This document shows, piece by piece, positions 3,835 through 34,788 of a stretch of 64,000 nucleotides of DNA. A program made the translations under genes and the position numbers. This DNA is from Acrocarpospora catenulata (GTDB lineage Bacteria; Actinomycetota; Actinomycetes; Streptosporangiales; Streptosporangiaceae): contig NZ_JAHCST010000011.1 of NCBI RefSeq assembly GCF_018476525.1, positions 124,001 to 188,000 of the forward strand, read 5' to 3'. The notes beneath the pieces were generated by a model that did no database searches, was not told the DNA's origin, and was given only the letters and a program-made list of their open reading frames with translations. The stretch's first letter is position 1; every line of letters begins with the position of its first letter.

Positions 3835-3847
3835 GTCGATGCTCCAA

Positions 3848-4148: not shown

Positions 4149-4153
4149 ATCTG

Positions 4154-5276: not shown

Positions 5277-5283
5277 TGCCGAC

Positions 5284-5814: not shown

Positions 5815-5824
5815 GGAACAACCG

Positions 5825-6424: not shown

Positions 6425-6448
6425 ATGCACCGTCCTTAGGTGTCCTAT

Positions 6449-6474
6449 GGATCCCTGGGCCACCCCAGGGATCC
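6449..6474. terminator. bidirectional terminator hairpin
   Basis: GGATCCCTGGG and CCCAGGGATCC form a perfect 11-bp stem with a 4-nt loop (CCAC), between the convergent TetR gene (ends 6424) and the secreted-protein gene (ends 6493). The stem is symmetric and can serve both directions; there is no U-run. Confidence 0.8.
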
Positions 6475-6492
6475 CACAGGTTGGCGATCAAG

Positions 6493-7872: not shown

Positions 7873-7961
7873 GATCTTCTCCTGGGGAGATGTGAGCGCC
7901 CTGTCTCCAGCTGTCGGGAGACAGGGCGAGGGGGAGAATGAAGAGCCTTGGTAGCCCTGAG

Positions 7962-9305
7962 TCAGCGGACGATGCCCTGGCTGTCCTTGCCGTCGCCGTC
8001 CCAGTCACCGATGACAGGCAGATCGCCGGAGTCGCCGTAGGCCACCGAGTGGGTGGTCTCAGTGGCCGAGGTGACCGGGCTGGTACGCAGGTAGAACCCG
8101 CCGCCCATCCGGACGCCGACGTTGTCCTTGCCATCGCCGTCCCAGTCACCGACGAAGGGCACGGCGTTGGGGTCGCCGTATCGGAAGACGTACTGAGCCT
8201 GGCCGGTGGCGGGGTTGTTGCTGAGGAGGAACTTGCCTGAGGCCGGGTCGTAGGCGCTGACGGTGTCCTTGCCGTCACCGTCCCAGTCACCCGCCAGCGG
8301 GATCATGGGAGCATCGCCATAAGCCACCGACTGAGTGGTCTCGGTAGCCGAGCTGACCGGGCTGGTACGCATGAAGAACACGTTGCCCATCCGGACACCC
8401 ACGTTGTCCTTACCGTCACCGTCCCAGTCGCCCACAAAAGGCACGGCGTTGGGGTCGCCGTACAAGAAGGTGTACTGGGCCTGACCGGAGGCGGGGTTGT
8501 TGCTGATGTAGAAACGGCCCGTGGTGGGGTCGTAGGTGCTGACCGTGTCCTTGCCGTCACCGTCCCAGTCGCCCGTGATGGGCACCATCGGGCTGTTGCC
8601 GTACGCGAAGACCGGCCGGGTAGCGACAGTGGAACTCTGGTTGTCAGACAAATAGAACTCCAGCACCCCCAAATTGCCAGATCCGCCGCAGTTGCGGCTG
8701 GTGACGTTTCTGTAGGTCTGGCTGTTGGCGCTGCCGTACGAGACACCGTTGAACGTGGGCTGGACCCGCTCGGCGCCCGCGTACCCCCAGGACGCCTCCC
8801 CGTTGCCGTTCGAGTCGTAACCGAGCTCGAAGTGGAGGTGCGGATGGTTGTTGGACGTGGGCCCCGTCCGGCCGACCCGCCCGATGAGGGTGCCCTGCTG
8901 AACCGTGGCGCCCACGTTGACGGCCCGGGACTGCAGGTGCAGGTACGTGGTGAACCAGCCGCCACCGTGATTGATCTGAATCACGTTGCCGGCGTTCTCG
9001 TGGTAGTACGACTTGTTGACCGTTCCGGCAGCGGGCGCGACGAGGGTGGCCCCCTCGGTGCCCTGCTGGTCCGGTTCCTTGACCATGTCGAGCGCCGGAG
9101 CGTGCCCCCAGGTGTCCAGCCGCCACTGCTGACCGCAGGGGAAGGGCAGCTGGAGGTTGGGGCCGGCCGCGGCGAGCGCGTCGTACGCCGGAATGTTCAA
9201 CAGCCCGCCCACGAGGCCGGTGAGCGCCGCCGCGGTGACTGTTCTCACCCACCCGGGGTGCCCCGGTCGCCGCTGCCGGGAGCGAAGGGAAACAAGCGAA
9301 CGCAT
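7962..9305 (-). CDS. secreted M23 (LytM-type) endopeptidase with five FG-GAP-like repeats
   Basis: A 447-residue exported protein with an N-terminal signal region (VRTVTAAALTGLVGGLLNIP). The M23 metallopeptidase domain spans about residues 45-200, with zinc-ligand stretches GHAPALD and HPHLHFEL plus AAGTVNKSYYHENAGN and TTYLHLQ, the usual M23 pattern; it should cut peptidoglycan cross-links. Residues 212-447 are the same five 47-residue repeats as in the gene at 6493. I chose the ATG at 9305 because AGGAG is 9 nt upstream; another ATG two codons earlier is too close to it. The gene is 89 nt upstream of its sister and in the same orientation. Confidence 0.88.
   Translation of the reverse strand: MRSLVSLRSRQRRPGHPGWVRTVTAAALTGLVGGLLNIPAYDALAAAGPNLQLPFPCGQQWRLDTWGHAPALDMVKEPDQQGTEGATLVAPAAGTVNKSYYHENAGNVIQINHGGGWFTTYLHLQSRAVNVGATVQQGTLIGRVGRTGPTSNNHPHLHFELGYDSNGNGEASWGYAGAERVQPTFNGVSYGSANSQTYRNVTSRNCGGSGNLGVLEFYLSDNQSSTVATRPVFAYGNSPMVPITGDWDGDGKDTVSTYDPTTGRFYISNNPASGQAQYTFLYGDPNAVPFVGDWDGDGKDNVGVRMGNVFFMRTSPVSSATETTQSVAYGDAPMIPLAGDWDGDGKDTVSAYDPASGKFLLSNNPATGQAQYVFRYGDPNAVPFVGDWDGDGKDNVGVRMGGGFYLRTSPVTSATETTHSVAYGDSGDLPVIGDWDGDGKDSQGIVR
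7965..8672 (-). repeat. copy 2 of 708-bp duplicated repeat domain
   Basis: Second copy of the domain described at 6496-7203. Protein identity is 233 of 236 positions despite silent differences. That pattern fits purifying selection on the protein plus gene conversion better than a very recent copy event. Confidence 0.9.
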
Positions 9306-9401
9306 GATCATGATCTCCTGACGGTCGAGGGTCGTTGCGACCGGCGAGGTCGAGCAAATTCGTGATCTTCCTCGTCGGACGGTCCTCACCGTGACCGGCC
9401 C

Positions 9402-9490
9402 TCTGTCCCGCAGCAAGGAGTTGGGACAACCCAGGGACAACGGGACAAGAAGTTGCCATGACCTGAGCAATCCCATCCGAGTTGGGACAG
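9402..9490. promoter_or_regulatory. clustered GGGACA repeats in divergent promoter region
   Basis: GGGACAA occurs at 9423, 9434 and 9442, GGGACAG at 9484, and the complement TGTCCC at about 9403. All lie between the divergent M23 gene (start 9305) and the XRE-membrane gene (start 9573). Spacing is 11, 8 and 42 nt. Such clusters usually mark a regulator binding array; the neighbouring HTH protein is the obvious candidate. Confidence 0.5.
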
Positions 9491-13385: not shown

Positions 13386-13398
13386 TCCTCGGACCTTC

Positions 13399-13439
13399 AA
13401 TCCGTAGGTTCAGGGTTCGAATCCCTGGCGCCCCACCAC
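13399..13439 (+). repeat. attachment site copy 1: tRNA-Lys 3' half
   Basis: The sequence is the 3' half of a tRNA-Lys: the anticodon-stem 3' strand TCCGT, variable loop AGGTT, T-arm CAGGGTTCGAATCCCTG, acceptor strand GCGCCCC, discriminator A and CCA. The 5' half is missing; the expected GGGGCGC acceptor strand is absent around 13363. It is the same as copy 2 at 27324-27364, and the integrase gene starts 190 nt to the right, which marks it as the left end of an integrated element. Confidence 0.8.
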
Positions 13440-13525: not shown

Positions 13526-13625
13526 CGCTCAAACCCTCGTCTGGACTTGACCAGGTTGGCGAGTCATGTCGTTCCAGCCTGCGGGTCATCCCGCCATCAT
13601 GCGACACCACGACAAGGGGGCTCGC

Positions 13626-15029
13626 GTGGCACGAATCGTCGAGCGGACCGCGAAGAACGGAGCGAAATCCTGGCTCGTCAAGTGGCGGATCGGCGGTGGA
13701 AGACACGGCCGGGAAGACTTCGAGACCTGCTACACCAAGGAGATCGCCCAGACCTTCGCGGCACTGGTCGGACACAACGGTGAGAACCGGCCGGAAGGCT
13801 ACCCCAAGGGCTGTCACGGCCTTCAACAGACCGGTCCCACCGGTCCCGATGCGGGTATGCCGACGTTCGAGCAGTACGCGCGGACGAACTACGCCATCCG
13901 CACTGCGGCGTCGCCGACTCAGCGATATGACTACCTGGCCGAGGCCGAGCGGCACATCTTCCCGTTCTTCGGTCACCTCCCGCTCAACGAGGTGACCCGG
14001 CGAGTCCTTCGCGAGTGGGCCGAATGGATGCTCGCCAAACCCTCAGCGCGCAACGAGCACCAACCAGGCAAGCCGCTCTCACCCGAGCGGGCCGCCCGCC
14101 GATGGGCCCACGCCAACGGCATCATGGTCAAGAAAACCGGCCGCGTGTCCCCGGAAGTGCTACAACGCTGGCGCGCCGCGGGCTCACCCCTTCAGCAGGA
14201 ACGAGCCGCCGGAACGCTGTCTCCGGGGACGGTCGCCAAGATCTACCGGGGCTCCATCAAGCCCGTCTTCCGCGCCGCCATGCGGGAAGGCGAGGACGGC
14301 GAACCGCCCCTGCTGTTCTCCACCCCGTGTGACGGCTTTCACCTCCCTGCCGCACCGGTAGCGGCGCGAGCCGTACTCTTCGGACCCGAGGTGGAGATCT
14401 ATCTCCGGGCCGTCTACGACACCGACCCGGCCACCGCGCTGTTCATCGTGACCGAGATGGCCACTGGCCTTCGCTGGGGCGAACTCGCCGGGCTGCACGT
14501 GTCCGGCCTCGATCCGACCGCCGGGGTCATCCAGGTCGTTCAGGCGTACGCGCTGCTGCTGAACGAGAAGACCGGCCGTAAGGAATGGCAGCTCAAGCCG
14601 TACCCGAAGGGCAAGAAACGCCGCCAGGTCCCGATCAGCACCCAACTCGCCGCCCTGCTGATCCAGCACGCGCAGGGGAAGAAGCCCGACGAGCCGCTCT
14701 TCCAGGGGATAAGGGGCTGCTACATCGACTATGGCAATCAGCGCAATACCATCTTGCAGCCCGCCCTCACCCTCGCCCGCCAACGCGGCCTGTCCAAACA
14801 CATCACGCCACATGCCCTACGGCACACGATGATCACAATGCTCCGGGACGGCAGCGTCGCGCCCGGCGTCATGCAACTGGTCGCCGGCCACGAGTCCTAC
14901 CAAACGACAGCCGGATACGCCGGATCAGAGACACCAGCCCAGCGGAGCCTCATCCTCAACTCCGTCCAGCCCGTCGTAGACGCAGCCGAAGCCGTGTTCG
15001 ACATCCCTCCAGACAATGGCCACTTGTAA
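13626..15029 (+). CDS. tyrosine site-specific recombinase (integrase)
   Basis: A 467-residue phage-type integrase. The catalytic set is visible: Arg in TGLRWGELAG (about 282), HALRHTMI (about 395), GHESY (about 420) and the nucleophile Tyr in TAGYAG (about 430). The N-terminal part holds an AP2-like arm-binding region and a core-binding domain (TFEQYARTNY, LNEVTRRVLREW). GTG at 13626 is preferred because AAGGGGG lies 5 nt upstream; the frame is open from 13566. It sits beside a tRNA-Lys 3'-half repeat and should catalyse integration and excision of element A. Confidence 0.92.
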   Translation: MARIVERTAKNGAKSWLVKWRIGGGRHGREDFETCYTKEIAQTFAALVGHNGENRPEGYPKGCHGLQQTGPTGPDAGMPTFEQYARTNYAIRTAASPTQRYDYLAEAERHIFPFFGHLPLNEVTRRVLREWAEWMLAKPSARNEHQPGKPLSPERAARRWAHANGIMVKKTGRVSPEVLQRWRAAGSPLQQERAAGTLSPGTVAKIYRGSIKPVFRAAMREGEDGEPPLLFSTPCDGFHLPAAPVAARAVLFGPEVEIYLRAVYDTDPATALFIVTEMATGLRWGELAGLHVSGLDPTAGVIQVVQAYALLLNEKTGRKEWQLKPYPKGKKRRQVPISTQLAALLIQHAQGKKPDEPLFQGIRGCYIDYGNQRNTILQPALTLARQRGLSKHITPHALRHTMITMLRDGSVAPGVMQLVAGHESYQTTAGYAGSETPAQRSLILNSVQPVVDAAEAVFDIPPDNGHL

Positions 15030-15405: not shown

Positions 15406-18400
15406 ATGCCCTCAGATTTGGTCGAAAACTTTCTCGAATCGATCGACGCTCCCTCACTTTTATGGAACGCTCCTTCGAATAGGGCTGCCGACCTGGTTCC
15501 CAAGCACGTACTGATCGGCCGCGGGGGCGACGGCCTGGAGGTAGCCGTCGCCTTCTGTCCTTCAGGCCCGCCCCTGGCCGAAGCCGTACGACGGCTGCAG
15601 CGGTACCGGCACGACAGCCGACCCGCCCCGGTGCTCCTGGCGGTCCTGTACCGGGACGGTGAGACCGTCAAAGCTTCGACCTGCGGAGTCTCCGACCCGC
15701 TCACCAACGTTGATACCGATCGGCTGGCGCGGGCGTGCTCAGAGGCGTTCAGGGAACCAAACGGCCATTTCGCCAGGCGCGCTCTGGAGCGCATGCTCCC
15801 CGCTCTGGCCGACCCGGATGACAGCGCCGGCCTGCATAACAGCGGACTTTTCGCCACCCATGAACTCCGAACCGGTGTCCCCAATCGCAGCGACTGGGCC
15901 ACCGCGACCACCACGGCAAAGCCGCTCCTGGAACTACGCGGCCTGGAACTCATTCACGGTCTCGGATACGGAACCTCCACTGAAAGTTCCGCCGCGATGC
16001 TGCTCACGGAACAGGGGAGTTCCCGGGCCATCGCCGTGCTGCTGGACGACGAAGAACTCTTCGACCGTCCGGAACCGAGGTTCGGCGCCGTCTCCCCCGT
16101 CTCCTACGCGATCGCGATGGCGGCGCGGCTCGGCCTCCCTTGGGTGATCGTCGTACGCGGCAGCCGACTCCGGCTGCATCCGGTGGACCCAGCCGTCGGA
16201 GTCGGGCGCCAGAGCCAGGGGGAGACCTACGCCGAACTCGACCTAGCACTGCTACGTGATGACGCCGCCGGGTACCTCCACCTGCTCTTCTCTCCCAGGG
16301 CGCTGGGACCTAACGGAACGGTGCACGACATTCTGCGCGCATCGTCGCAGTTCGCCGCCGATCTGGGGGGCCGACTGCGCGAGCGTGTGTACCACGATGT
16401 CGTCCCAAGTTTGGCCGTGGCCATTGCCCGGCAGACGCGAGCTGTCACCGAGGGCGAGTTGCAGGAGGCTTACCAGCACGCTCTGGTGATACTATTCCGG
16501 CTCCTTTTCACGGCGTACGCGGAGGACCGGGGACTCTTGCCGTACGGCCGGAACGAGCATTACACCCGCCATGCAGCGAAAACCCTTGCCAGAAACTTCA
16601 CCACCGACCCGAACCAGGCGTTCGATCCGTCGGCGACGGCACTCTGGGATGATATGGCCGCCGTGTGGCAGGCCATCGACTGCGGAAACCAGGGATGGAA
16701 CGTTCCCGCCTACAACGGTGGCCTTTTCTCCATAGACCTGCACACCAATCCCTCCGGTGCGGCCCTGGCGTCCCTGCGCCTGAGCGACGCGGAATTTGGG
16801 CCGGCGCTGCGCGCCCTGCTTGTAGACACCGGTCCGGACGGAGCTCGGGGACCAGTTGACTTCCGCTCCCTGAGCGTCCGCGAGTTCGGCACCTGCTACG
16901 AAGGCCTGCTGGAGTCGTCCCTGTCGATCGCGCCGGGACCGCTCAAACTCGACAGGGACGGCTCGTTCGTTCCGGCCCGCGAAGGAGACCAGCCAGCCGT
17001 AGGGACAGGTGAGGTCTACTTTCACAACCGTTCGGGGAAACGGAAGTCGACCGGTTCGTACTTCACCAAGTCGTTTGCGGTCGAACACCTGCTGGACACT
17101 ACGCTGGAACCGGCGCTAACCACGCATCTCGATCGGGTTCTCACGCTCTTGGACTCGGGTGACGACGCCAGGGCCGCGGAGGCGTTCTTCGACTTCCGGA
17201 TGGCCGATCTGGCGATGGGGTCGGGGCATTTCCTCATCGCGGCGATCGACCGGATCGAGTCCCGCTTCACGGCCTTCCTCACAGAGCACCCCATCGCCGC
17301 AGTACACGACGAGCTGAACAGGCTCTCCGACGCCGCCCGCGCGCAACTGTACGACCACGCCGACGAGGTGGAGATCGAGACCTCCGCGCTGCTGCGCCGT
17401 CAGATCGCCCGCCGCTGCGTCTACGGGCTGGATCTGAACCAAATGGCAGTCGAGCTGGCGCGGCTCGCAGTCTGGATCCACACCTTTGTCCCCGGTCTGC
17501 CGATGTCCTCGCTGGACCACGGGCTGGTCGTCGGCAACAGCCTCACCGGTATCGGGACGATCGAGGAGGTGGTGGAGATACTCGACCCGCAAAGCGCAAC
17601 CAGCGGCGCGCTCAGTCTCTTCGAGGAGCCAGTCAGGGAAACGCTAGGGACGGCCCGGGAAAGGCTCGCCCGGGTCGCGCTCACTTCCGAGGCCACCAAG
17701 CAGGAGGTGGCGGAGGCCCGGGACGCCCACGAGCAGGCGCTCGACGACGCGTCGGACGCCCGTGCCCTGTTCGACGCCGCCGTGGCGATCCGGTTAGGGA
17801 TCATCACCCCGCTGGTCACACCCGAGCAGGCCATCGCAGCCGGGCACATGCCCGGGGTCCGCAACCGACTGGACGAACTGCGGGTGACGCACTTCCCGTT
17901 TCGTTTCCCCGAGGTGTTCATGCGGGATCGTCCAGGCTTCGATGTGCTCCTGGGCAACCCCCCATGGGAAAAGGTGAAGGTCGAGGAGCACCAGTGGTGG
18001 GGACTGCGTTTCCCCGGGCTGCGGTCGCTACCGCAGCAGGAGCGGTACGCGGCCCTCACACGGCACCGGGCGGAACGGCCGGATCTGGTCGCCGAGTATG
18101 AAGCCGAGATCGAAGCCGTGCGAGTGGTCAAGACAGCGTTAGGCACGGGGCCATTCCCCGGGCTGCGCGCGGCCACCGACACGGACCTGTCACTCGCGTT
18201 CGCATGGCGTTTCTGGCATCTGCTGCGCGAGGGCGGACGGCTCGGCGTGGTGCTGCCGCGAACGGTCCTCAACGGCACCGCCGGGGCTAGGTTCCGCCAG
18301 ACCGTCCTGGCAGAAGGGGCATTCGCCGACGTCACGATATTGGTCAACAGCCGTAATTGGGTCTTCGATGAAGTCGATTCTAGGTACACGATCGGCCTGA

Positions 18401-19452
18401 CAACGGTGGTCAAGGGTGCAGGGCACGCGGGCTGGGTGGAGTTGCACGGGCCTTTCTTCTCTCGGCAGGAGTTCGACCAAGGAACCCGTGTCTCCGGGTA
18501 TGTCGTCGACGCCGCCGCATTCGCGTCATGGTCGGAGGGAGCTTCCTTTCCTGTCTTGCCCCGGAAAGACAGCATGGAGGTTTTCCTCAAACTTCGCTCG
18601 CACCCGAAACTAGGCGCTCCCGGCGGAGATTGGGAGTTCGTCCCACTACGGGAATTGCATGGTACGCAGGACAAGTCCATGTTCGATTTCGACCTAAGCC
18701 CATCCTCCGATGACATACCTGTCCTCACAGGGGGATCGTTCAACCTGTGGGAACCGGATTTCGGAGATCCGTACGCGTACACTAAACGATCAGAGATAGT
18801 TCCACTGCTTCAAATGCGCCGCAAAAAGCAGGTTAAACTCTCACGAAGCGCCCTTTTCGACATGCCGCAAAGCTGGGTGGAGAGTATAGAGTCGCTTCCC
18901 CTGCTCAACCCGAGGATTACCTTCCGCGAGGTTGCCCGGAGCACTGACCAGAGAACGGTAATATGCGTCCTGGCCCCGGCTGGAAGCGCGCTCATCCATA
19001 AGGCTCCCTATCTGCTCCGCCGACGCGGGGACAGGAAAGACGAAGCCTATTTGCTGGGAGTGATGTCCAGCATTCCACTAGATTGGTTCGCTCGGCGATA
19101 CGTAGAGTTAAGCGTTGCCTATGGACTCCTCAGTTCATTCCCAGTTCCTCGACCAGCTAAGGACGATCGACGCAGGAATCGGGTAGTTCAGATAGCTGGC
19201 CGTCTCTCGGCTGTGGACAATCGGTACGCCTCTTGGGCCGCAGAAGTAGGAGTACCGGTCGCTTCGGTCATCTCCGATGCCGAGCGCAACGATCTCATCG
19301 CCGAACTAGACGCACTCGTCGCCTTGCTCTACGGCTTGGACCGCGGTGAGGTCATACACATCTTTGAGACCTTCCACCGCGGCTGGGATCCCGCTGAGCA
19401 TCTCACGGCTGTACTGCGCCACTTTGACGCATGGAAGGCCGAGACGCCGTGA
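15406..19452 (+). CDS. large Eco57I-type N6-adenine DNA methyltransferase
   Basis: A 1348-residue protein. Methyltransferase motifs are clear: TGSYFTKSFAVEHLL (motif X), ADLAMGSGHFL (motif I, about 600), YGLDLNQMAVELA (about 670) and LLGNPPWEKV (motif IV, NPPW at about 851). NPPW is typical of Eco57I-type and PglX/DrmMI-like adenine methylases. The N-terminal 400 residues have no motif I can name, and the C terminus probably recognises the target. The stop overlaps the GTG of a PLD/SNF2 helicase gene by 4 nt, so both act together, as in DISARM- or BREX-like defence. It may methylate self DNA, but single-chain restriction-modification activity cannot be excluded. Confidence 0.9.
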   Translation: MPSDLVENFLESIDAPSLLWNAPSNRAADLVPKHVLIGRGGDGLEVAVAFCPSGPPLAEAVRRLQRYRHDSRPAPVLLAVLYRDGETVKASTCGVSDPLTNVDTDRLARACSEAFREPNGHFARRALERMLPALADPDDSAGLHNSGLFATHELRTGVPNRSDWATATTTAKPLLELRGLELIHGLGYGTSTESSAAMLLTEQGSSRAIAVLLDDEELFDRPEPRFGAVSPVSYAIAMAARLGLPWVIVVRGSRLRLHPVDPAVGVGRQSQGETYAELDLALLRDDAAGYLHLLFSPRALGPNGTVHDILRASSQFAADLGGRLRERVYHDVVPSLAVAIARQTRAVTEGELQEAYQHALVILFRLLFTAYAEDRGLLPYGRNEHYTRHAAKTLARNFTTDPNQAFDPSATALWDDMAAVWQAIDCGNQGWNVPAYNGGLFSIDLHTNPSGAALASLRLSDAEFGPALRALLVDTGPDGARGPVDFRSLSVREFGTCYEGLLESSLSIAPGPLKLDRDGSFVPAREGDQPAVGTGEVYFHNRSGKRKSTGSYFTKSFAVEHLLDTTLEPALTTHLDRVLTLLDSGDDARAAEAFFDFRMADLAMGSGHFLIAAIDRIESRFTAFLTEHPIAAVHDELNRLSDAARAQLYDHADEVEIETSALLRRQIARRCVYGLDLNQMAVELARLAVWIHTFVPGLPMSSLDHGLVVGNSLTGIGTIEEVVEILDPQSATSGALSLFEEPVRETLGTARERLARVALTSEATKQEVAEARDAHEQALDDASDARALFDAAVAIRLGIITPLVTPEQAIAAGHMPGVRNRLDELRVTHFPFRFPEVFMRDRPGFDVLLGNPPWEKVKVEEHQWWGLRFPGLRSLPQQERYAALTRHRAERPDLVAEYEAEIEAVRVVKTALGTGPFPGLRAATDTDLSLAFAWRFWHLLREGGRLGVVLPRTVLNGTAGARFRQTVLAEGAFADVTILVNSRNWVFDEVDSRYTIGLTTVVKGAGHAGWVELHGPFFSRQEFDQGTRVSGYVVDAAAFASWSEGASFPVLPRKDSMEVFLKLRSHPKLGAPGGDWEFVPLRELHGTQDKSMFDFDLSPSSDDIPVLTGGSFNLWEPDFGDPYAYTKRSEIVPLLQMRRKKQVKLSRSALFDMPQSWVESIESLPLLNPRITFREVARSTDQRTVICVLAPAGSALIHKAPYLLRRRGDRKDEAYLLGVMSSIPLDWFARRYVELSVAYGLLSSFPVPRPAKDDRRRNRVVQIAGRLSAVDNRYASWAAEVGVPVASVISDAERNDLIAELDALVALLYGLDRGEVIHIFETFHRGWDPAEHLTAVLRHFDAWKAETP

Positions 19453-22400
19453 GCGCCCATATGGAGGACTTCCGTCCCACGTTCGCCACCAACAACCCCG
19501 AACGCGCGGGGACGGTCTCGGACGCGATCAACACCCTGCTGACCGGGATGCGCACCAACCTGGCCGTCCCGCCTGCAGTCTCGATCGCGACGGCTTACTT
19601 CAACCCTGCCGGCTTCAGCCTGCTGGCCGCCGAGTTGGAGCAGGCTAGCCGGGTGCGACTGCTGCTGGGGGCTGACCCTGACCAGGCCAGGCCCCAGATC
19701 CGCCCGCTGGCCGTCGGCGTCGGCAGGCGCGGGGAACGCCAGCAGATCAAGCGCGTGCTGGAAGGCCATCTGCGCCGATTGGAGGAGGACCGCGACCTAC
19801 TGGGCTTCACCTTTGAGGCCGACGCCGCAGCCCGGCGCCTGGTGGATTGGCTGCGTTCGGGCCGCGTCGAGGTGCGGCGCTACGAGGCCGGTTTTCTGCA
19901 CGGCAAGGCATTCGTCATCGACGGCTCTCTCCCAGGAGTGATCGCCGGATCGAGTAACTTCACCTACTCCGGTTTGGCTGTGAACAAGGAGCTGAACCTC
20001 GGCCAATACGACCCGAAAACCGTACGAGAAGTGCGGGAATGGTACGAGGAAATGTGGCACGCCGCCGCGCCCTTCGACCTGGCCGCGCTTTACGAGTCGC
20101 GCTGGCTGCCGCACAGCCCGTGGCAGGTGTTCCTGCGGATGCTGTACGAGCTGTACGGAGCGGAAGTCGAACAGGAACAGGGGGCCCGATCCTCCTCGCG
20201 ACTCAAACTGACCGCGTTCCAGTCCGACGGGGTGTGGCGGGCCCAGCGGATCCTCGACCGGCTGAACGGCGTGATCGTCGCCGACGAGGTCGGCTTGGGC
20301 AAGACCTTCATCGCCGGGGAGATCCTGCACGAGACCGTGGTCGCTAACCGGCAGAAGGCACTGGTCATCGCCCCGGCGACCTTGCGGGACTCCACCTGGG
20401 GCCCGTTCCTGCGCGAGCGTAACCTGCGCGCCGACATCATCTCCTTCGAGGAACTGGCGATCGGCCTGCCCAACGCCGGCCAAGTTGGTGCGGCGTTGCA
20501 GAATCCCGACGAGTACGCGCTGGTCGTGGTGGACGAGGCGCACGCACTGCGCAACGCCGCCACCAAGCGGGCCGAGGCGCTGCGCACGCTACTGACCGGC
20601 AGCGTCCCCAAGCGGCTGGTCCTGCTCACCGCAACGCCGGTCAACAACAGCCTGTACGACCTGTACAACCTGATCTCCTATTTCGTCACCAACGACGCGG
20701 CCTTCGCCGGCTCCGGGGTTCCTTCACTCCGGGGATACTTCGACCGGGCCATGGCAATGAACCCTGACGATCTTTCCCCGGAGCATCTGTTCGACGTGCT
20801 GGATAAGGTGGCGGTCCGCCGCACCCGGCGGTTCGTTCGCCACCACTACGTCGGCGACCTGGTGGTGATCAACGGGGTGGAGCGGCACATCGCGTTCCCC
20901 ACGCCGCGAGTCCGCCGCGTCGACTACGACCTGGACAAGGCGCTCCCAGGGCTTTTCGACCGACTTGCCACAGCGCTCGGCGCTCACGTGGACCACTCCG
21001 GCCGCCTCGACGGCGGCGGCTCGGCGGTGCTGCTGGACGCCCCCGGCGAAGTGCTCACCCTGGCCCGGTACGTACCTTCCCGATTCCGACGCGGCGGCAA
21101 CGAGGAGCAGTACGAGCAGCAGAACGCCGGGTTGCTGCGCTCGGCGCTGCTCAAGCGGTTCGAATCCTCGGCGTATGCCTTTCAGCGCACTCTGGACAAG
21201 ATGATCGACGGCCACGAGGCATTTCTGTCCGCGCTCGACCACGGCGTGGTGCTCAGCGGGGACGCGCTACGGGAGTGGACCTCCTCCGACGGCGACGACC
21301 TCGACGATTTCCTCTCCTCCCTGGACGCCGCAGACGACGGCAACGTACGAAATGCCAGCGAGTTCGACGCCGCCGCGCTGGGAGCCGCCATACGAGCGGA
21401 CCTGTCCTTGCTCGCCTCCTTTCGTAATGAGGTCCAGGCTCATCAGGCAGGCCCCGATCCCAAGGTCGACATGCTGGTGGAGGAGCTCGCGGTCATCGCC
21501 GAGGAGGCGGCGGCCGAGGGCGTTACCGCGCAGCAGACCCGGGACAAACGCAAGACGCTGGTCTTCTCCTACTATTCCGACACCGTCGAGCACATCCACG
21601 GGCGGCTGCTGGCGGCAGTCGAGGCCGACCCCCGACTGGCCTGCTACCGCGGCCGGATCGCCACCGCCTCCGGCCCGGACCGCTCCGGGCGCGCCCAGGT
21701 CATCGCCGGTTTCGCGCCCCGAACCGCAGGCGGCGGCACCGAAGAGGACCGGTACGACCTGATCATCGCCACCGACGTACTGGCCGAGGGTGTCAACCTG
21801 CAACAGGCCCGGCACATCGTCAACTACGACCTGCCGTGGAACCCGATGCGCCTCGTCCAACGGCACGGACGCATCGACCGCATCGGCTCCGACCACAGCG
21901 CGGTGTTCCTGCGCTGCTTCTTCCCGGACCAGCAGCTTGAACGCCTCCTCGGCCTGGAAGAGCGCCTGCAGCGCAAACTCAAGCAGGCCTCCGCCGCCAC
22001 CGGTGTCGGCGACGTGCTGCCCGGTTTCACCGGCCGTGACGTCAACCTGACCGAAACCCGCGAGGAGATCGACCGGCTGCGCCGCGAGGATGCCACCCTC
22101 TTTGAGACCGGTGGCGCCTCCGCCCTGTCGGGCGAGGAGTACCGGCGCCGCCTCCAGGCCGAGCTTCGCCACTCCCCGGTGCGCAGAGCAGTGCTGGACC
22201 TGCCGTGGGGCAGCGGGTCCGGTTTCCTCCGGATCGGCGGTACGCAGCCCGGCCTGGTGTTCTGCGCCCGCGTCGGCGACCATCCCCGCCCGTGGTTCCG
22301 GTACGTGCCGCTGGGCGCCGATCTGGAAGCCGTCGTGGATGAGCAGGGCCGTCCCGTCGTGATCGGCGACACCCTGGCCTGCCTGGCAGCCGCCGACCCC

Positions 22401-22835
22401 GACAACCAACAGGTCCCCGCCGTGCTGGCCGAGGACGTCTATCGGGCCGCGTTCGGCGCCTGGACGCACGCCCGACAGGACATCCTCACCTCTTGGATGC
22501 ACAACGCCGATCCGGCTAACCTGCAGCAACCTGTCCCCAGGGTGATGCGCGACGCCGCCGAGCTGGTCCGCCGGCAGGGCGCCCACCTGGGAGAGCTGCA
22601 GGACGATCTGGTCAGCCGACTTCAGGCCCCCTACAGCCCGCGCATCCTGCGCGCCGTCCGCGACGGCCTGGCCCACCCCGGGACCGCCCGGCAACGGGTG
22701 GACCAGCTGGCCGAACTCGCCGACCGGCTCGGCCTGGTCCGGCAGCCTTCTCCCGAGCCCTTACCGCCCATCACCGAAGACGACATCCACCTGATCTGCT
22801 GGATCGCCACCGTCCCTGGGCCACCGACCTGTTGA
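19449..22835 (+). CDS. PLD-nuclease / SNF2 helicase fusion
   Basis: The protein has 1128 residues. The N-terminal 230 form a phospholipase-D-like domain with the HKD signature LHGKAFVID followed by AGSSNFT (about 150-172), a nuclease type seen in restriction enzymes. The rest is a SNF2/RapA-type superfamily 2 motor: ADEVGLGKTF (about 278), VVVDEAHALRN (about 361), LLTATPVNN, LVFSYYSDT and the C-terminal lobe ATDVLAEGVNLQ with QRHGRIDRIG (about 805). The GTG at 19449 overlaps the methyltransferase stop. A single HKD copy implies a dimer. DISARM encodes PLD and SNF2 as separate proteins; here they are fused. Confidence 0.92.
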   Translation: MSAHMEDFRPTFATNNPERAGTVSDAINTLLTGMRTNLAVPPAVSIATAYFNPAGFSLLAAELEQASRVRLLLGADPDQARPQIRPLAVGVGRRGERQQIKRVLEGHLRRLEEDRDLLGFTFEADAAARRLVDWLRSGRVEVRRYEAGFLHGKAFVIDGSLPGVIAGSSNFTYSGLAVNKELNLGQYDPKTVREVREWYEEMWHAAAPFDLAALYESRWLPHSPWQVFLRMLYELYGAEVEQEQGARSSSRLKLTAFQSDGVWRAQRILDRLNGVIVADEVGLGKTFIAGEILHETVVANRQKALVIAPATLRDSTWGPFLRERNLRADIISFEELAIGLPNAGQVGAALQNPDEYALVVVDEAHALRNAATKRAEALRTLLTGSVPKRLVLLTATPVNNSLYDLYNLISYFVTNDAAFAGSGVPSLRGYFDRAMAMNPDDLSPEHLFDVLDKVAVRRTRRFVRHHYVGDLVVINGVERHIAFPTPRVRRVDYDLDKALPGLFDRLATALGAHVDHSGRLDGGGSAVLLDAPGEVLTLARYVPSRFRRGGNEEQYEQQNAGLLRSALLKRFESSAYAFQRTLDKMIDGHEAFLSALDHGVVLSGDALREWTSSDGDDLDDFLSSLDAADDGNVRNASEFDAAALGAAIRADLSLLASFRNEVQAHQAGPDPKVDMLVEELAVIAEEAAAEGVTAQQTRDKRKTLVFSYYSDTVEHIHGRLLAAVEADPRLACYRGRIATASGPDRSGRAQVIAGFAPRTAGGGTEEDRYDLIIATDVLAEGVNLQQARHIVNYDLPWNPMRLVQRHGRIDRIGSDHSAVFLRCFFPDQQLERLLGLEERLQRKLKQASAATGVGDVLPGFTGRDVNLTETREEIDRLRREDATLFETGGASALSGEEYRRRLQAELRHSPVRRAVLDLPWGSGSGFLRIGGTQPGLVFCARVGDHPRPWFRYVPLGADLEAVVDEQGRPVVIGDTLACLAAADPDNQQVPAVLAEDVYRAAFGAWTHARQDILTSWMHNADPANLQQPVPRVMRDAAELVRRQGAHLGELQDDLVSRLQAPYSPRILRAVRDGLAHPGTARQRVDQLAELADRLGLVRQPSPEPLPPITEDDIHLICWIATVPGPPTC

Positions 22836-22890
22836 ATGTGCGTCCTGAAGGCATGTCGGCGGCGAGGATCACGAAACCAGCTGCTCAGGC

Positions 22891-24357
22891 CTACTCCAGC
22901 CCGGCTAGTTCCACTTCCAAGTTCCGCAGTTCCTCCCGCGTGGCGGCGATCTCTTCTCGGAGTTCCTCCGCACGCAGCCGCCTGTGGATGCTGGTGCCTC
23001 GGTCGATACGTGTGGAGACCTGCACATGTTCCCGATGACAAATGACGCGTTCGACCAGAATCGCGCGCCCGAGGTCGGTGAACGATTGGAGGCCCCGGGT
23101 GGAGACCGACCGCCAGGGGTTGCGGGCGAACGCATCCAGGCCCGCGACCACAAACGCCCCGTGCTCCTGGATCTCCCGGACCTGCCCCAATTGGGCGGAC
23201 AACCTCGCACGGAGACCCGAAAGCAACCTGTCCGCCTTGGCTGCGCCGATGTGGGCGTCGTAGATTTCGAGCTTCGCCACGAGATGGACGACGTAGGTGG
23301 CCAATACCTCAGGAGCCGGTGCCAATTCTGGGGCCAGCGCCCAGTGGGAGCGGTCGTCGAGCCGGCGGATGAGCATTCGGTCGACCGCGTCGTCGACGGT
23401 CTCCTTGTCTGTGTGGTGGTAGCGCCCGTCGGCATGCCTGTGCTCACAGGCGTACGCCATTTCCGAACGGCCCTTCCATTCATGGAGCGCCATCAGTTGG
23501 TCGCAGAGACCGCAGCGGACGTTCAGAACAAGTTCCAGCGGTTGGGGATTCGCCTCGTCGAAGGCCGAAAGCTTCGCGGTCACCGTGCGGTGGTCTTGGG
23601 CGCGGGTGCCATAGACCTGAATCCACGATTCATCTCCGTCGGCGATCACCGGGGCGATGAGTGCGAGCGCGTCATACTTGACGTGGTCGGCGAACCGCCA
23701 CGTCTCCATAGGCTCACCTTCTCCGAAGGCGTGCCATCCGTGTGCCGGATCGGCCTCACAGCGGAAACCGACTTCGAGCGTACGCGGCTCGAAGAACAGC
23801 TGCGCCTCGGCTCCGCACCCGGCCCCCTCGGAACAGGACGTCCCGGCGGTCAGTACACCGGCTGGCCGCCCGCCGGCACGCCGTTGCTCATCGGCGAGAG
23901 CCCAGTTCCGGCCGACGAGGATGCGGTGGGCCCGTTCGTCGATCGCATCCGCAGCCCTCACCCGCGTGGCTACCGCACGCTCGGCCTCAGCCCTGCGCCG
24001 CGCTTCCTCTTCACGGCCCGGAAGCAGCCGCTCCAGTCTGTCGGCTTCCGCCCTCTGGTGAGGACTCAGCTCGGGCAGTTCGGCGCCGCCGCACGTCCGG
24101 CAGGCCCGTTGATGGTGCAGGTCGGCTCGGAATGCGGTCAGAGACACCGTCACCGGGTCTCCGGCATGTTTGCCGCGTTGCGGACAGGACGGACTGTGTG
24201 ACCGGCCGTTCAGCTTCGCCAAATAGGTGATGTGGATCTGCGCGAGGGAACCCAACTCTTCGTTAAGGAGCAGAGGGGAGAGCAGGACGTCGGCAGTACG
24301 GCGGGAGACCTCTTCCGCCGACCGGTCACCTGTCACCGACCCTCGTGGCAGCGTCAT
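22891..24357 (-). CDS. Cys-rich protein of unknown function in defence island
   Basis: A 488-residue protein I do not recognise. It has several metal-binding-like Cys groups (CRTCGG, CSEGAGCG, VRCGLCDQL with CEHRHADG), an Arg/Glu-rich helical stretch at about 105-150 and a coiled coil at the extreme C terminus (RAEELREEIAATREELRNL). The middle carries Trp-containing segments such as FADHVKYDALALIAPV. It is convergent with the helicase gene (55 nt apart) and divergent from the Mrr-like gene, so it lies inside the defence block on its own promoter. The start is uncertain: ATG 24357 or TTG 24396. Confidence 0.7.
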   Translation of the reverse strand: MTLPRGSVTGDRSAEEVSRRTADVLLSPLLLNEELGSLAQIHITYLAKLNGRSHSPSCPQRGKHAGDPVTVSLTAFRADLHHQRACRTCGGAELPELSPHQRAEADRLERLLPGREEEARRRAEAERAVATRVRAADAIDERAHRILVGRNWALADEQRRAGGRPAGVLTAGTSCSEGAGCGAEAQLFFEPRTLEVGFRCEADPAHGWHAFGEGEPMETWRFADHVKYDALALIAPVIADGDESWIQVYGTRAQDHRTVTAKLSAFDEANPQPLELVLNVRCGLCDQLMALHEWKGRSEMAYACEHRHADGRYHHTDKETVDDAVDRMLIRRLDDRSHWALAPELAPAPEVLATYVVHLVAKLEIYDAHIGAAKADRLLSGLRARLSAQLGQVREIQEHGAFVVAGLDAFARNPWRSVSTRGLQSFTDLGRAILVERVICHREHVQVSTRIDRGTSIHRRLRAEELREEIAATREELRNLEVELAGLE

Positions 24358-24400
24358 GACGTCCAACCTACGCTTTTCCTGATCACTCGGAACCAAGTTT

Positions 24401-24415
24401 GGAATCTTTCATTCC
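24401..24415. promoter_or_regulatory. inverted repeat in divergent promoter
   Basis: GGAAT and ATTCC flank a 5-nt spacer, in an AT-rich stretch containing CCTATATAAC (24421-24430), which could be a -10 region for the Mrr-like gene starting at 24524. The site lies between two divergent genes. The role is inferred from position. Confidence 0.35.
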
Positions 24416-24523
24416 GGAGGCCTATATAACGTGAATAATGCAGTCCTATTCCCAAACTGTCGTACAGCCCAGCTACCTTTTTCCGGAGGTCTCACGACGC
24501 CGCATAAGGCACCGGAGGGGGAA

Positions 24524-26152
24524 ATGGCCAGAAAGCGTGGCATTTGGTCCGATATGCAACGCGAGTGGGCCCGTCGGCAACGTTCAGAGCAACAGGCCCG
24601 TCGTGCGGCGTTGCAGGCCGTGGCCAGGGCGGAACGAGAGCGGGCGCGGGCGGACCGAGCGGCAGCACAGCGCGCTGCGGCGAACGAGCGTGAGCGCAAA
24701 CGGCTGTACATCGAATCCCGCAAAGCCGAGGCCGTCGAATGTGCCGCCGACGTCCAGGTCATCGTCGACGAGTTGGACTCCCTGCTAACCGCCGGGCTCC
24801 AGAAGCGTGACGTGGTCACCTTTCAGTCTCTGAAGCGCACCTTCCAGCCGCCGCCTTTCGACCCCGCGGGTTTGGACCGGCCGCTTCCTGGCAGGCCCCA
24901 GTGGGTCGCGCCTCCGCCACCGAATGCCGTGGGCCGGCTGTTCGGCGGAGCCGCCCGTCACGAGCGCGAAGAGGCCGCTGCTCGGCAAGCCTACGAGCAG
25001 CAGAGCTCCCGCTACGAGGTTGCCGATGCCGAACGCCGCAGGAGGCTGGCGGAACGGTATCACGCGTACCAAGAGTGGATCTCCGGCTTGGCCCGGGAGA
25101 TCGAAGAGCATAACACCGCGGTCGACGAGTTCGAGAGTGGCGCTCGCGGTGGCGATTCCGATGCGGTGGCGAAGTTCTTCACGCTGGTCCTCGACGCCTC
25201 CTCCTTGCCCGAGGCGTTCCCCCACCGTACGCGGGTCGTCTACCGCCCCGAAGCCCGTGAACTTGTCGTCGAGTACGAACTTCCCGCCCAGGAAGTCATC
25301 CCGACAACGCGGGATTTCCGGTATGTCCAAGCCAGCGATGAGATCAAGACGCTCCCCCGGCCTCCCAAGGAAATCAAGGAGCGCTACGCCCGGCTTGTCG
25401 CTCAGGTCGCCCTGCGTGTCCTCCATGAGGTCTTCAACGCAGAACTCTCCCACCTTGTGGAGACGGCCAGCTTCAACGGACACGTGTCGGCCAAGGACAA
25501 GGCGACCGGGCAACCGATCCACCCTTGTCTCATCAGCGCTGGCGTGTCTCGGGAGCTGTTCTCCACCTTCGTCCTGGCCGATCTGGACCCGGTCGTGTGC
25601 CTCAAGCGGATCAATGCCCTGGTCTCACCGCATCCCTACGAACTGGAGGCGGTGCGCCCCATGGTCGATTTCGAGGCGTTGCTGTCGCAGTACAAGTTCG
25701 TCGAGGGCATCGACGCCGTGGCCGGGCTCGACAGCCGACCCGACCTGCTAGCCATGACACCGACCGAGTTCGAGCACCTGACCCGGCAACTGTTCGAGGC
25801 CATGGGCATGCAGAGCTGGGTGACCCAGCCCTCCAAGGACGACGGCGTGGACGCCGTGGCCGTGAACGAGGACCCGGTGTTCGGTGGCGTGTGCATCATC
25901 CAGGCCAAGCGGTACAGCAAGGCCGTCGGCATCGAGTCGGTGCGCGCGCTCGCCGGCGTGATGGAGGACAAACACGCCACCAAGGGCATCCTCGTCACCA
26001 CCTCATGGGTCGGCGACGAGAGCCGCGCCTTCGCCGCCCGGCATGGCCGCATCCAGCTCATCGAATGTGAGGAGCTCGTCTACCTGTGCAAGGAGCATCT
26101 CGGACTCGACGTGCTCATCAGCCTCCCCAAGCCCCCACCACGCCGCCGCTGA
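24524..26152 (+). CDS. Mrr-like restriction endonuclease with coiled-coil N terminus
   Basis: A 542-residue protein. The first 120 residues are Arg/Ala/Glu-rich coiled coil, residues 130-400 are an unassigned region with further helical and beta segments, and the last 130 form a restriction_endonuc_4/Mrr fold: TPTEFEHLTRQLFEAMG, then KDDGVDAVAV (catalytic Asp, about 440) and CIIQAKRYS (QxK, about 460). Mrr-type enzymes usually cut DNA with foreign methylation. The ATG at 24524 has GGAGGGG 4 nt upstream; the frame is open earlier without a start signal. It lies in the same block as the methyltransferase and helicase, but on a separate transcript. Confidence 0.85.
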   Translation: MARKRGIWSDMQREWARRQRSEQQARRAALQAVARAERERARADRAAAQRAAANERERKRLYIESRKAEAVECAADVQVIVDELDSLLTAGLQKRDVVTFQSLKRTFQPPPFDPAGLDRPLPGRPQWVAPPPPNAVGRLFGGAARHEREEAAARQAYEQQSSRYEVADAERRRRLAERYHAYQEWISGLAREIEEHNTAVDEFESGARGGDSDAVAKFFTLVLDASSLPEAFPHRTRVVYRPEARELVVEYELPAQEVIPTTRDFRYVQASDEIKTLPRPPKEIKERYARLVAQVALRVLHEVFNAELSHLVETASFNGHVSAKDKATGQPIHPCLISAGVSRELFSTFVLADLDPVVCLKRINALVSPHPYELEAVRPMVDFEALLSQYKFVEGIDAVAGLDSRPDLLAMTPTEFEHLTRQLFEAMGMQSWVTQPSKDDGVDAVAVNEDPVFGGVCIIQAKRYSKAVGIESVRALAGVMEDKHATKGILVTTSWVGDESRAFAARHGRIQLIECEELVYLCKEHLGLDVLISLPKPPPRRR

Positions 26153-26423
26153 CATTCCACAGCTCCGACAACACGTCTGGGCCGGACCTCGGCTTCTCAG
26201 ACACCGCTGGTATGCGTACAGGACCCAGCGGAGATGGTTGCTTCCACGAAGGTGGTGTACGAGTTTGGGCTGGTAGCAAGTCGCCGGTGGATTGGACCAA
26301 CCACTCGACGCCCAGGAAGTTCCGGCCCAACGACGAGGGATTCAGGCACCCGAGCTGATTCGTGTTCTCGGAATCTCATCCGAACGTGGACGCGTAAACT
26401 CCAGGTGAGAGGAAGGAGTGACG
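26153..26423. other. intergenic region before TA pair
   Basis: About 270 nt without a supportable gene; a GA-rich ribosome site (AGGAAGGAG) ends it. I see no clear hairpin or operator repeat. Confidence 0.4.
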
Positions 26424-26696
26424 ATGAGCGCAAGGTACGGCATAGCGCCTCCTGCTCGTTCGGATGACGCACACCCCTTGCGGACCATCCGGGAGATCCG
26501 CGCGTCCTTGCCCGGCGACCAGCTTGTCCACTTCGACACCGAGCTCGCCGAGACCGACATTTCCGAGCTGGAATCAATGCTCACCCGCTGGGCAGCGCTC
26601 GCCAACGACGGCTTCGAGGAGTTCCTCCTCTCGACCCCGTTCGAGGACCTGAACTTCGGGGGCCGCTCCTACGACGAGCGACCGGAGAGCGAGTGA
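26424..26696 (+). CDS. antitoxin-like small protein paired with PIN toxin
   Basis: A 90-residue acidic protein with no recognised DNA-binding motif (helix FDTELAETDISELESML, acidic tail). The ATG at 26424 is chosen because AGGAG lies 6 nt upstream; GTG at 26418 is too close to it. Its stop overlaps the GTG of a PIN-domain gene by 4 nt, the usual antitoxin-first layout of VapBC modules. The assignment rests on this coupling and on size. Confidence 0.6.
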   Translation: MSARYGIAPPARSDDAHPLRTIREIRASLPGDQLVHFDTELAETDISELESMLTRWAALANDGFEEFLLSTPFEDLNFGGRSYDERPESE

Positions 26697-27124
26697 TCTA
26701 CCTCCTCGACACCAACGTGGTGGCCGAGCTCACGACCAGGCCGAAACCTGATCCGAACGTCATCGCCTGGTTCCGGGCGATCCCGACGCCGAACCTCTAC
26801 CTGAGCGTGCTCACCATCGCTGAGATCGAAGCAGGTGTCACGGCCGTCACCGATCCTCTGCGCAGAGCACTATACGACCAGGCGCTGGCGCAGATCCGGA
26901 TCGACTACCAGGGTCGGATCGCCTTGATCGGCGAACGGGAGGCAGGGGCGTACCTGGCCATCCACAAGACCCTCAAAAGCGCCGGAACCAGCATCGACCC
27001 GCCCGATGCCCTGATCGGCGCGACGGCCCTGGCCAACAACTGGACGCTGGCCACCCGTAACACCAGACACCTCGCCCGAACAGGTGCCCGCGTGGAGAAT
27101 CCGTGGGAGGAACATTCGGCGTAG
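26693..27124 (+). CDS. PIN-domain toxin (VapC/FitB type)
   Basis: A 143-residue ribonuclease-like toxin. Acidic PIN residues are visible: LLDTNVVAEL (Asp 5), TIAEIEAG (Glu), and PPDALIGATAL with ATRNTRHL near the C terminus; this matches FitB/VapC enzymes that cut tRNA or rRNA. The GTG start overlaps the antitoxin stop. The gene is the last in element A, 194 nt before attachment copy 2, where a toxin-antitoxin pair can stabilise the element. Confidence 0.85.
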   Translation: MIYLLDTNVVAELTTRPKPDPNVIAWFRAIPTPNLYLSVLTIAEIEAGVTAVTDPLRRALYDQALAQIRIDYQGRIALIGEREAGAYLAIHKTLKSAGTSIDPPDALIGATALANNWTLATRNTRHLARTGARVENPWEEHSA

Positions 27125-27317: not shown

Positions 27318-27364
27318 ACTTTTAATCCGTAGGTTCAGGGTTCGAATCCCTGGCGCCCCACCAC
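27318..27364 (+). repeat. attachment site copy 2: tRNA-Lys 3' half with TTT anticodon loop
   Basis: From the anticodon loop CTTTTAA through TCCGT, the T-arm and CCA, this is a perfect 3' half of tRNA-Lys(UUU). No 5' half precedes it. It forms the right end of element A and, with copy 3, the left end of element B. Confidence 0.85.
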
Positions 27365-27478: not shown

Positions 27479-28692
27479 CCTGTGGGGTGCGAAAACCCGG
27501 GTGCGGCCTCTGGTCTGCGGTTATCCGCCTCGTCTATGCGGCCCGCTGGTACTGGTTGATCAGGCCGTCGAGTACCTGCCGGCGTTGCAAGCGGACCTGA
27601 TCGGGATCTCCGGGTGGAGCAGGGGTATGTGGTGGTTGAGGTGGTCGACGGTCTCGTGAGCGATGGGGACGGTGGCGGTTGTAATGCCGTTCGTATGCCT
27701 GCAGGACTCGGCGGAGATGGCCTTCGTCGTAGATCAGCATCCGGTCGGTGCATTCCCTTCGGACGGTGCCGACCCAGCGCTCGGCTATCGCGTTGGCCTG
27801 CGGTGCGCGAACTGGTGTTTTGATGACGCGGGCGCCGAGTGAGGTGAACACCTCGTCGAAGACTGCGGTGAATTTGGCGTCGCGGTCGCGAATGAGGAAT
27901 CTGATGCCCTCGACCCGCGCTCCCTGGTTCATGACCAGGTTGCGGGCTTGTTGAGCGACCCAGGTTCCGGTCGGATGCGCCGTGATGCCCGCGATGTGGA
28001 CCACGCGGGTGGCGTGCTCGATGAAGAACAGAACATAGAGCCGTTTGAGGAAGACGGTGTCGACGTGGAACAGATCGCACGCCCAGATGCCCTCGGCCTG
28101 CGCTTTGAGGAACTGGCCCCAGCTCGGGCCGGTGCGACGTGGCGCCGGACCGAGACCGGCCTTTTTGAGGATGTCGCGTACGGTGCTGGGCGGTACCCGA
28201 AGGCCGATGCCGGCCAGCTCTCCGCTGATGCGCTGATAGCCCCATGAAGGATTCTCCTGGGCCAGGCGCAACACCGCCTCCCGGACCTCTGCGCGGGTAG
28301 AGGGACGACCCGACCGTTTGGAGGGGTAGGTCCACCGGCGCGTCACCAGCGCGCGGTGCAGCGCAGCAACGTCGCGGGGGTAACGAAGAAGACGTTCCAC
28401 GACGAGCGGGGAAGCAGCTGCGACAAGGCCGCGAGCACGACCCGATCTCCAGGCTGAAGCTCGGGCCGGTTCACCTGACGGCGCAGCACGGCGACTTGAT
28501 GGCGAAGCACCACGATCTCGGCCGTCTTGGCCCGGTCATCGCGGCCCAGCAGGACCAGGAGCTGAAAGATACGCCCGAGGATGAGGTAGAGGGAGGACCA
28601 CGACACCGTCAGCAGGATGCCCGAGACCTCACCATGCTCGAGCCACGAACCCTCAGGTCAACCTCACCGGCTGAGTTTCCGCACCCCACAGG
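27479..28692 (-). mobile_element. 1.2-kb insertion sequence, DDE (rve-type) family
   Basis: The ends are inverted repeats: CCTGTGGGGTGCGAAAAC at 27479-27496, and the complement of GTTTCCGCACCCCACAGG ending at 28692 (one mismatch in 18). They enclose one transposase gene read from the minus strand. I see no clear target duplication. Partial copies of the same IS occur at 30199-30489 and about 33352-33450. Confidence 0.75.
27534..28606 (-). pseudogene. rve/DDE transposase with single-base deletion
   Basis: Two overlapping minus-strand frames together make a transposase of about 357 residues. The N-terminal part (GTG 28606 to 28343) has the helical EIVVLRHQVAVLRRQV and ends at FVTPATLLR. The second frame carries PSTVRDILKKAG and the DDE core: ACDLFHVDTV (Asp), LIRDRDAKF (Asp) and NAIAERWVGTVRRE (Glu). 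At about 28360 the sequence reads CGCTGCACCGC where relatives would need CGCTGGCACCGC (LRWHR), so one G is missing. No slippery heptamer is present, so programmed frameshifting is unlikely. Confidence 0.8.
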
Positions 28693-34741: not shown

Positions 34742-34788
34742 ACTTTTAATCCGTAGGTTCAGGGTTCGAATCCCTGGCGCCCTACCAC
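34742..34788 (+). repeat. attachment site copy 3: tRNA-Lys 3' half
   Basis: Same sequence as copy 2 from the anticodon loop to CCA, with one change (GCGCCCT instead of GCGCCCC in the acceptor strand). It ends element B. No tRNA 5' half precedes it. Confidence 0.85.

Follow-up and report, generated by a model that had tools for sequence, protein, structure and literature searches.

The stretch of DNA analysed here (the window, 64,000 nucleotides (nt) long, positions 124,001 to 188,000 of contig NZ_JAHCST010000011.1 of Acrocarpospora catenulata, a genome labelled G000) carries two adjoining genes that probably constitute a two-gene, ATP-dependent restriction-modification (RM) system carried by a tRNA-Lys integrative island. 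The first gene (15406..19452, plus strand) codes for a giant Eco57I-type methyltransferase of 1348 aa, the putative modification subunit and probable specificity subunit, and the second (19431..22835, plus strand) for a 1134-aa fusion of an HKD-type PLD domain with a SNF2 helicase, the putative restriction subunit. An original prediction on the same DNA had grouped both with two further genes, encoding a Cys-rich protein and an Mrr-type nuclease, as a candidate defence system. The four open reading frames (ORFs) are found where it placed them, and the homologues that other genomes hold of each show that they are more than chance ORFs. The conserved system, however, consists of two genes and not of four.

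In the mechanism proposed, the methyltransferase would recognize a DNA sequence through its C-terminal third and, judging from its motif I, its NPPW motif and its family, would methylate adenine. By forming a complex with the PLD-SNF2 protein, it would recruit it to unmethylated sites, for instance on phage DNA if the pair serves in defence. The SNF2 motor would then move along the DNA, which the N-terminal HKD nuclease predicted from motifs would cut. Restriction would most likely take its specificity from the methyltransferase protein, in the way that Res takes its specificity from Mod in type III systems.

Linkage of the methyltransferase and the helicase

In the window, both genes overlap by 4 nt (GTGA, 19449-19452), as originally predicted, if the helicase starts at its GTG codon, and by 22 nt if it starts at the in-frame ATG located upstream at 19431. 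The helicase was used as query, and the best 80 of at least 585 relatives were fetched with up to 10 kb of DNA per side. A near-full-length set of 28 was defined by a match over 1100 helicase residues, at least 41% identity and at least 2 kb of upstream DNA. A methyltransferase homologue stands upstream on the same strand in 28/28, within 130 nt of the helicase in 18 and at 0.4 to 5.0 kb in 10. The set excludes, for short upstream DNA, three loci with the end of a methyltransferase visible (L008, L019, L029) and five cut within about 500 nt with no methyltransferase visible (L016, L028, L030, L037, L044). Also excluded are L048, a 111-residue fragment with 1.5 kb of upstream DNA and no methyltransferase, and matches of only local extent, for example L067 and L072 (42% over about 120 residues, without methyltransferase).

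The same association is seen among 250 genomes of the same family, the helicase being found in nine, the methyltransferase in nine and both in eight; the odd genomes match in part only (helicase residues 678-1130 in G028, methyltransferase residues 367-639 in G068). The original prediction would have been refuted by neighbourhoods in which the two genes never co-occur, and these counts contradict such a picture. Of six plasmid records with at least 80% of the query covered, two were opened, and in both the gene immediately upstream measures about 4 kb; it proved to be Eco57I in the one tested. According to the labels of the records, the hosts of helicase relatives include Actinomycetota, Acidimicrobiia, Thermoleophilaceae, Gaiellaceae, Thermoanaerobaculia, Rhodothermales, Longimicrobiales, Planctomycetota, Chloroflexi and one haloarchaeon. 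Phage records gave no tblastn match at E 1e-30. Viral relatives exist, since PHROGs, which is made from viral proteins, includes families without function label to which the helicase (269 bits) and the methyltransferase (152 bits) are similar.

A length filter dropped 12 of 36 methyltransferases (L113, too long; L009, cut by its contig; ten split over frames) and 6 of 43 helicases, leaving 22 loci with both proteins. The longest methyltransferase and helicase ORFs overlap in 18 of these 22. Clustering of ORFs, setting aside those located by coordinates within the two genes, revealed no third gene family in more than 4 of 36 loci. A third core gene is thus rejected, as DUF222-HNH (seen by Pfam in L011 and by clustering in L014 and L013), DUF4062 (seen by Pfam in L036 and by sequence in L031) and further families each occur in at most 4 of the 36.

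Exchange of the C-terminal segment

The 22 loci, including that of L017, whose methyltransferase is also split near its end, give 231 locus pairs. Over these pairs, helicase identity correlates with that of the methyltransferase core (residues 140-820) with r=0.97, and with that of residues 880-1348 with r=0.22; both values are descriptive, with no significance test, because the sequences are related. An example is provided by two Microbacterium loci, L022 and L023, with an identity of 0.96 for the helicase, 0.96 for the core and 0.29 for the segment. Their DNA aligns at 91% over 96-2648 and at 90% over 4094-7519, with 1445 unalignable nt in between. The alignment ends at codon 848, six codons past NPPW (839-842), and resumes at the stop codon of the methyltransferase. 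By analogy with this junction, the exchangeable segment of the window is placed at residues ~860-1348, after NPPW (17983..19449, plus strand), and it may represent a target-recognition domain.

Two further comparisons show the same contrast between helicase, core and segment, namely L114/L116 (0.90, 0.83 and 0.20) and the window/L116 (0.80, 0.70 and 0.20). Not all close pairs differ, as L118 and L119 keep 0.92, 0.94 and 0.90, respectively. Segments and helicases may also have different nearest relatives: L116 is closest to L114 by its helicase (0.90) and to L117 by its segment, and L035 to L026 by its helicase (0.90) and to L033 by its segment.

Such a pattern is what an exchange of target-recognition domains would leave in the sequences. 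Since the helicase is unchanged when the segment swaps, guidance of restriction by the methyltransferase protein is the simplest interpretation. The segment would then serve both modification and restriction, by analogy with type III systems, in which the recognition part of Mod is exchanged, but starting from other parts. The swap of the probable sequence-reading part beside a constant motor suggests that the cutter depends on the methyltransferase to locate the target. The natural Microbacterium pair, alike but for one segment, makes directly testable how a SNF2-nuclease learns its target.

The methyltransferase

The methyltransferase matches Eco57I in Pfam, and its motif I (D601..GSGHF) and GNPPW (850-854) are kept in at least 92% of 24 homologues. 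Its AlphaFold model (residues 1-1200, 22 sequences) reaches a mean pLDDT of 83.6. In Foldseek, this model retrieves first the BREX proteins BrxX/PglX (8c45, 9ewz; 12-14% identity) and then DrdV. Whole-model fold comparison gave no resolution of the N-terminal domain. In the model, residues 140-260 can be read as following the helix-strand order of a restriction-endonuclease fold. A conserved E-x-K or D..ExK is missing from residues 1-540 of the 24 homologues, columns 205-220 included for E-x-K. The combination of an endonuclease-like order with the lack of a conserved E-x-K suggests that residues ~140-260 (15823..16185, plus strand) form a dead nuclease domain, cleavage being supplied by the HKD domain of the partner.

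The methyltransferase could also be a self-sufficient type IIG restriction enzyme-methyltransferase, with the helicase as an accessory. Its best PADLOC profile is indeed REase_MTase_IIG (PDLC03620, 862 bits, residues 138-1340), and the IIG and IIB enzymes DrdV, BpuSI and BsaXI are among its structure matches. This is nevertheless unlikely given the near-complete linkage to the helicase and the absence, at the level of sequence, of the motif expected for an active nuclease in the same chain.

The helicase and its wider group

As the original prediction proposed, the helicase carries its own HKD domain, a putative nuclease, Pfam placing PLDc_2, SNF2-rel_dom and Helicase_C in one chain. The HKD-type motif consists of H157, K159, G173, S174 and N176 (19899..19958, plus strand). 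HxK, GSxN, the Walker lysine, DEAH, TAT and QRxGR are kept in at least 92% of 37 helicases. The AlphaFold model (28 sequences) has a mean pLDDT of 80.0, and RapA ranks first among its Foldseek matches.

In a tree of 82 helicase cores (FastTree, midpoint root), the family falls within a clade holding all placed matches to the PADLOC profile C3a139, with a support of 1.0. It stands apart from DrmD and from sub-cut-off matches to NF042964, the best of which (L157) is absent from the tree, having no helicase-core match. Twenty loci of this wider HKD-SNF2 group, two of them (L202, L203) belonging to the family itself, were scanned with a methyltransferase profile, which matched in 16. The match lies directly upstream of the helicase in L196, L197, L199, L202, L203 and L034, downstream in L200, L201, L206 and L041, and beside it on the other strand in L042, L043, L045, L046 and L204, L043 having a second match on the helicase strand. 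L198 shows a match, but no helicase ORF was found. On a sister branch, L194 and L195 lack a match to the profile and adjoin type III Mod and Res genes; in L207, neither a profile match nor a helicase ORF was found. As wider relatives thus adjoin different types of methyltransferase, including type III Mod/Res, the same motor-nuclease may be coupled to several modification enzymes.

Several observations weigh against a coupled RM pair. An acidic residue near the place of the HKD aspartate exists in only 23 of 37 helicases and, as this aspartate is not conserved, nuclease activity is likely but not certain. The Foldseek TM score by query length is only ~0.3, for the methyltransferase and helicase models alike. 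Four of the 22 loci show no overlap of the two ORFs: the ORFs are 48 nt apart in L116 and 87 nt apart in L117, the methyltransferase of L017 is split, and L036 has other genes in between. In ten metagenome loci, assembly error or decay has left the methyltransferase in several frames, and L205 of the wider group has no match to the methyltransferase profile. Finally, the exchanged segment may determine nothing but methylation, and the helicase may have another way of sensing unmethylated DNA.

Alternatively, the pair could lack sequence specificity and act on DNA that is unmethylated or being replicated, a swapped segment changing only the sites that protect the host. The C-terminus of the helicase has no assigned role, which leaves room for such a mode of action, and the DISARM DrmAB complex acts without a fixed target sequence according to the available part of PMC9142583. 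By itself, however, this explanation does not account for the tight co-variation of the helicase with the methyltransferase core, though shared descent of linked genes could suffice, and we regard it as rather unlikely compared with a helicase directed by the methyltransferase.

The Cys-rich and Mrr genes

The gene for the Cys-rich, zinc-ribbon-like protein (22891..24396, minus strand, 501 aa) is convergent with the helicase gene and divergent from the Mrr gene (24431..26152, plus strand, 573 aa from 24431, with an alternative start at 24524). Because of this minus-strand ORF, the four genes cannot form one operon. The Cys-rich protein shows several pairs of conserved Cys residues and, below the cut-off, matches the serine-recombinase zinc ribbon; it has no PDB relative at E 0.1. 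Homologues occur in six other genomes of the family, some as fragments only. The Mrr-type nuclease matches Mrr_cat in Pfam and mREase_IV (PDLC03663, 469 bits) in PADLOC.

The original prediction counted both genes with the pair as one candidate system, a claim that did not survive, as they are distributed independently of it. The flanking DNA of the best 80 of at least 585 helicase relatives contains no match to either at E 1e-5, nor do the flanks of eight same-family loci, three of which have less than 2 kb downstream. Among the 250 genomes of the family, the Cys-rich gene is present in seven, coinciding with the helicase in the own genome alone, and Mrr in 35, coinciding with it in the own genome and, on another contig, in G034. 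Genome-wide, the eight other helicase genomes of the family thus include none with the Cys-rich gene and one with Mrr. A four-gene system is rejected on this lack of linkage, and both genes are island co-residents outside the pair.

The tRNA-Lys island

The pair and the Cys-rich and Mrr genes are the cargo of one 13.9-kb island, which also holds a tyrosine integrase and lies between two copies of a tRNA-Lys 3' end. On the left, attL (13396..13438, plus strand), identified by pattern search of the own genome and alignment, is a 43-nt copy of the 3' end of tRNA-Lys(TTT). The integrase gene sits directly inside it (13566..15029, plus strand); its product of 487 aa matches Phage_integrase and, weakly, an Lsr2-like DNA-binding domain at residues ~158-208. 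On the right, attR (27321..27363, plus strand) differs from attL by one mismatch and is followed by sequence like the downstream flank of tRNA-Lys: attR with its flank matches the intact tRNA-Lys, found on another contig (G000:C116:1394-1468), with its downstream flank at 94% over 143 nt. Allowing at most three mismatches, the 43-nt end occurs in the window at 13396-13438, 27321-27363 and 34745-34787, all copies lacking the 5' half of tRNA-Lys. Four more copies elsewhere in the genome (G000:C93, C113 (two) and C116) bring the total to seven; the reversed pattern, used as a control, gave 0 matches in this genome.

Between Mrr and attR, a VapC-type PIN protein (26693..27124, plus strand) scores 56 bits with the VapC model, whose cut-off is 140. 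A small ORF overlapping its start (26418..26696, plus strand; no PHROGs family) might be an antitoxin by position only. The RM pair, the Cys-rich protein, Mrr and VapC look like fellow passengers on the island.

In the same-genus genome G127 (L221 14595-17205, G127:C92), an integrase gene that matches that of the window at 89% in DNA stands at an att copy beside other cargo, so the integrase travels with changing cargo. Next to them come two genes with 91% identity to window 4111-5008, which can be read as a toxin-antitoxin pair; HTH_3, in the second gene, is the only feature confirmed, the first having no Pfam family. In G004, the RM pair lies ~1.2 kb from a homologue of this gene pair. Several tRNA-Lys 3'-end copies also occur in each same-genus genome and, with the seven of the own genome, suggest a family of integrative elements with changing cargo.

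A clean empty site was not obtained from the two same-genus genomes examined. Both keep the left flank (window 10.4 to 13.3 kb), which breaks off ~85 to 105 nt before attL, and one joins it in reverse to the region of window 62.6 kb. The junctions at window ~13.3 kb and ~62.6 kb, compared with L219, suggest an inversion relative to G127 with one breakpoint beside attL, which confuses the picture of the empty site.

Outside the island, the left end of the window (63-3930, minus strand) contains McrBC-like genes, including one for an AAA_5 protein. The McrC-type gene looks broken, as two ORFs of this region each correspond to another part of the family PF10117. Two adjoining FG-GAP repeat proteins, one with a peptidase M23 domain, are encoded at 6493-9476 (minus strand); they are near-identical in their C-terminal halves, apparently through a recent duplication. 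A transposase-like ORF (rve_3; 27534-28400, minus strand) lies just right of attR.

Significance

If the proposed coupling is true, current annotation splits a widespread and unnamed RM group into lone type IIG enzymes and a helicase that has no explanation. Single-profile annotation would label the methyltransferase as a lone type IIG enzyme and miss its partner. Both opened plasmid records label the pair 'hypothetical protein' with 'helicase-related protein' or 'helicase, SNF2 family'.

Comparison with known systems

By the features tested, the pair is not DISARM, BREX or type III. The original prediction held that the set was close to DISARM and BREX with an unfamiliar layout; this stands for the methyltransferase-helicase pair, which lies outside both, and not for the four-gene set. 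A literature search, beyond the reach of which lay most subscription journals, found no paper naming this pair and no description of the same gene order as one named system, an absence that is weak given this partial coverage.

An adenine methyltransferase, a SNF2 helicase and a PLD nuclease are among the parts of DISARM class 1. The pair resembles it in these three parts (components as given in the available text of PMC9142583) and could be imagined as a stripped class 1 system with a DISARM mechanism, in which DrmMI and DrmD remain and the DrmC PLD is fused. The profile searches that the original prediction called for do return DrmMI for the methyltransferase (204 bits) and the NCBIfam DrmD for the helicase (163 bits), but the latter score is far below the DrmD cut-off of 610, and the helicase lies outside the DrmD clade and inside the well-supported HKD-SNF2 clade. 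The PLD domain is fused rather than a separate DrmC. DUF1998 (PF09369, DrmB) matches somewhere in 12 of 23 genomes and inside the fetched locus range in 0/23; in the own genome, both of its two matches lie off the window contig, in line with the earlier remark that it was not seen. DISARM membership is therefore rejected, and a stripped DISARM is highly improbable.

BREX contributes the closest solved structures to the methyltransferase model, PglX/BrxX, but at the low identity and TM score given above. No match to PglZ or BrxC/PglY is listed for the eight block proteins scanned (for the helicase, among the best 25 of 43 matches).

Type-2 BR (PMC12839542) and the COG1743-DUF499-SNF2/nuclease operon (PMC7641849), according to the available parts of these sources, comprise a methyltransferase, an HKD- or PD-fused SNF2 helicase and DUF499, type-2 BR also encoding a DUF3780 protein. 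The likeness lies in an N6-methyltransferase accompanied by HKD or PLDc fused to a Swi2/Snf2 helicase, whereas the DUF499 ATPase that both have in these texts is not placed at the loci of the pair. Indeed, DUF499 (PF04465) has matches in 8 of 23 genomes, none placed in the locus; two overlap the locus range in number, in L011 within the helicase gene and in L010 in an ORF without Pfam family. The HKD-Swi2/Snf2 fusion is present, but membership of type-2 BR is rejected on the lack of a DUF499 match placed at the locus.

The PADLOC profile C3a139 (HKD+Snf2, PDLC01075) is the best for the helicase (172 bits, no curated cut-off) and for 5/5 other helicases tested, with the same domain order and the same clade. 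It is, however, a single-protein profile, scoring 388 bits on the sister branch in a type III Mod/Res locus.

A parallel in organization is type III, with two genes, recognition and methylation in one subunit and motor and cleavage in the other. Type III Res carries a C-terminal PD-(D/E)xK nuclease, whereas the putative Res of the pair has an N-terminal HKD domain on a SNF2 motor. In EcoP15I, according to the available text of PMC4490356, Mod ensures recognition and methylation and Res the ATP motor and cleavage, Mod being of the beta class with DPPY; the methyltransferase of the pair is instead of the Eco57I type, with NPPW and a C-terminal segment. Type III membership is thus rejected on both the Mod motif and the nuclease type of Res. 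We lean, if only slightly, towards an unnamed class of ATP-dependent RM systems with hosts in many bacterial phyla and among haloarchaea. In this class, an Eco57I-type methyltransferase, its nuclease domain dead and its single recognition cassette swappable, would direct a SNF2 motor that bears an HKD nuclease. The logic would resemble that of type III, reassembled from BREX/IIG-like and SNF2/PLD parts.

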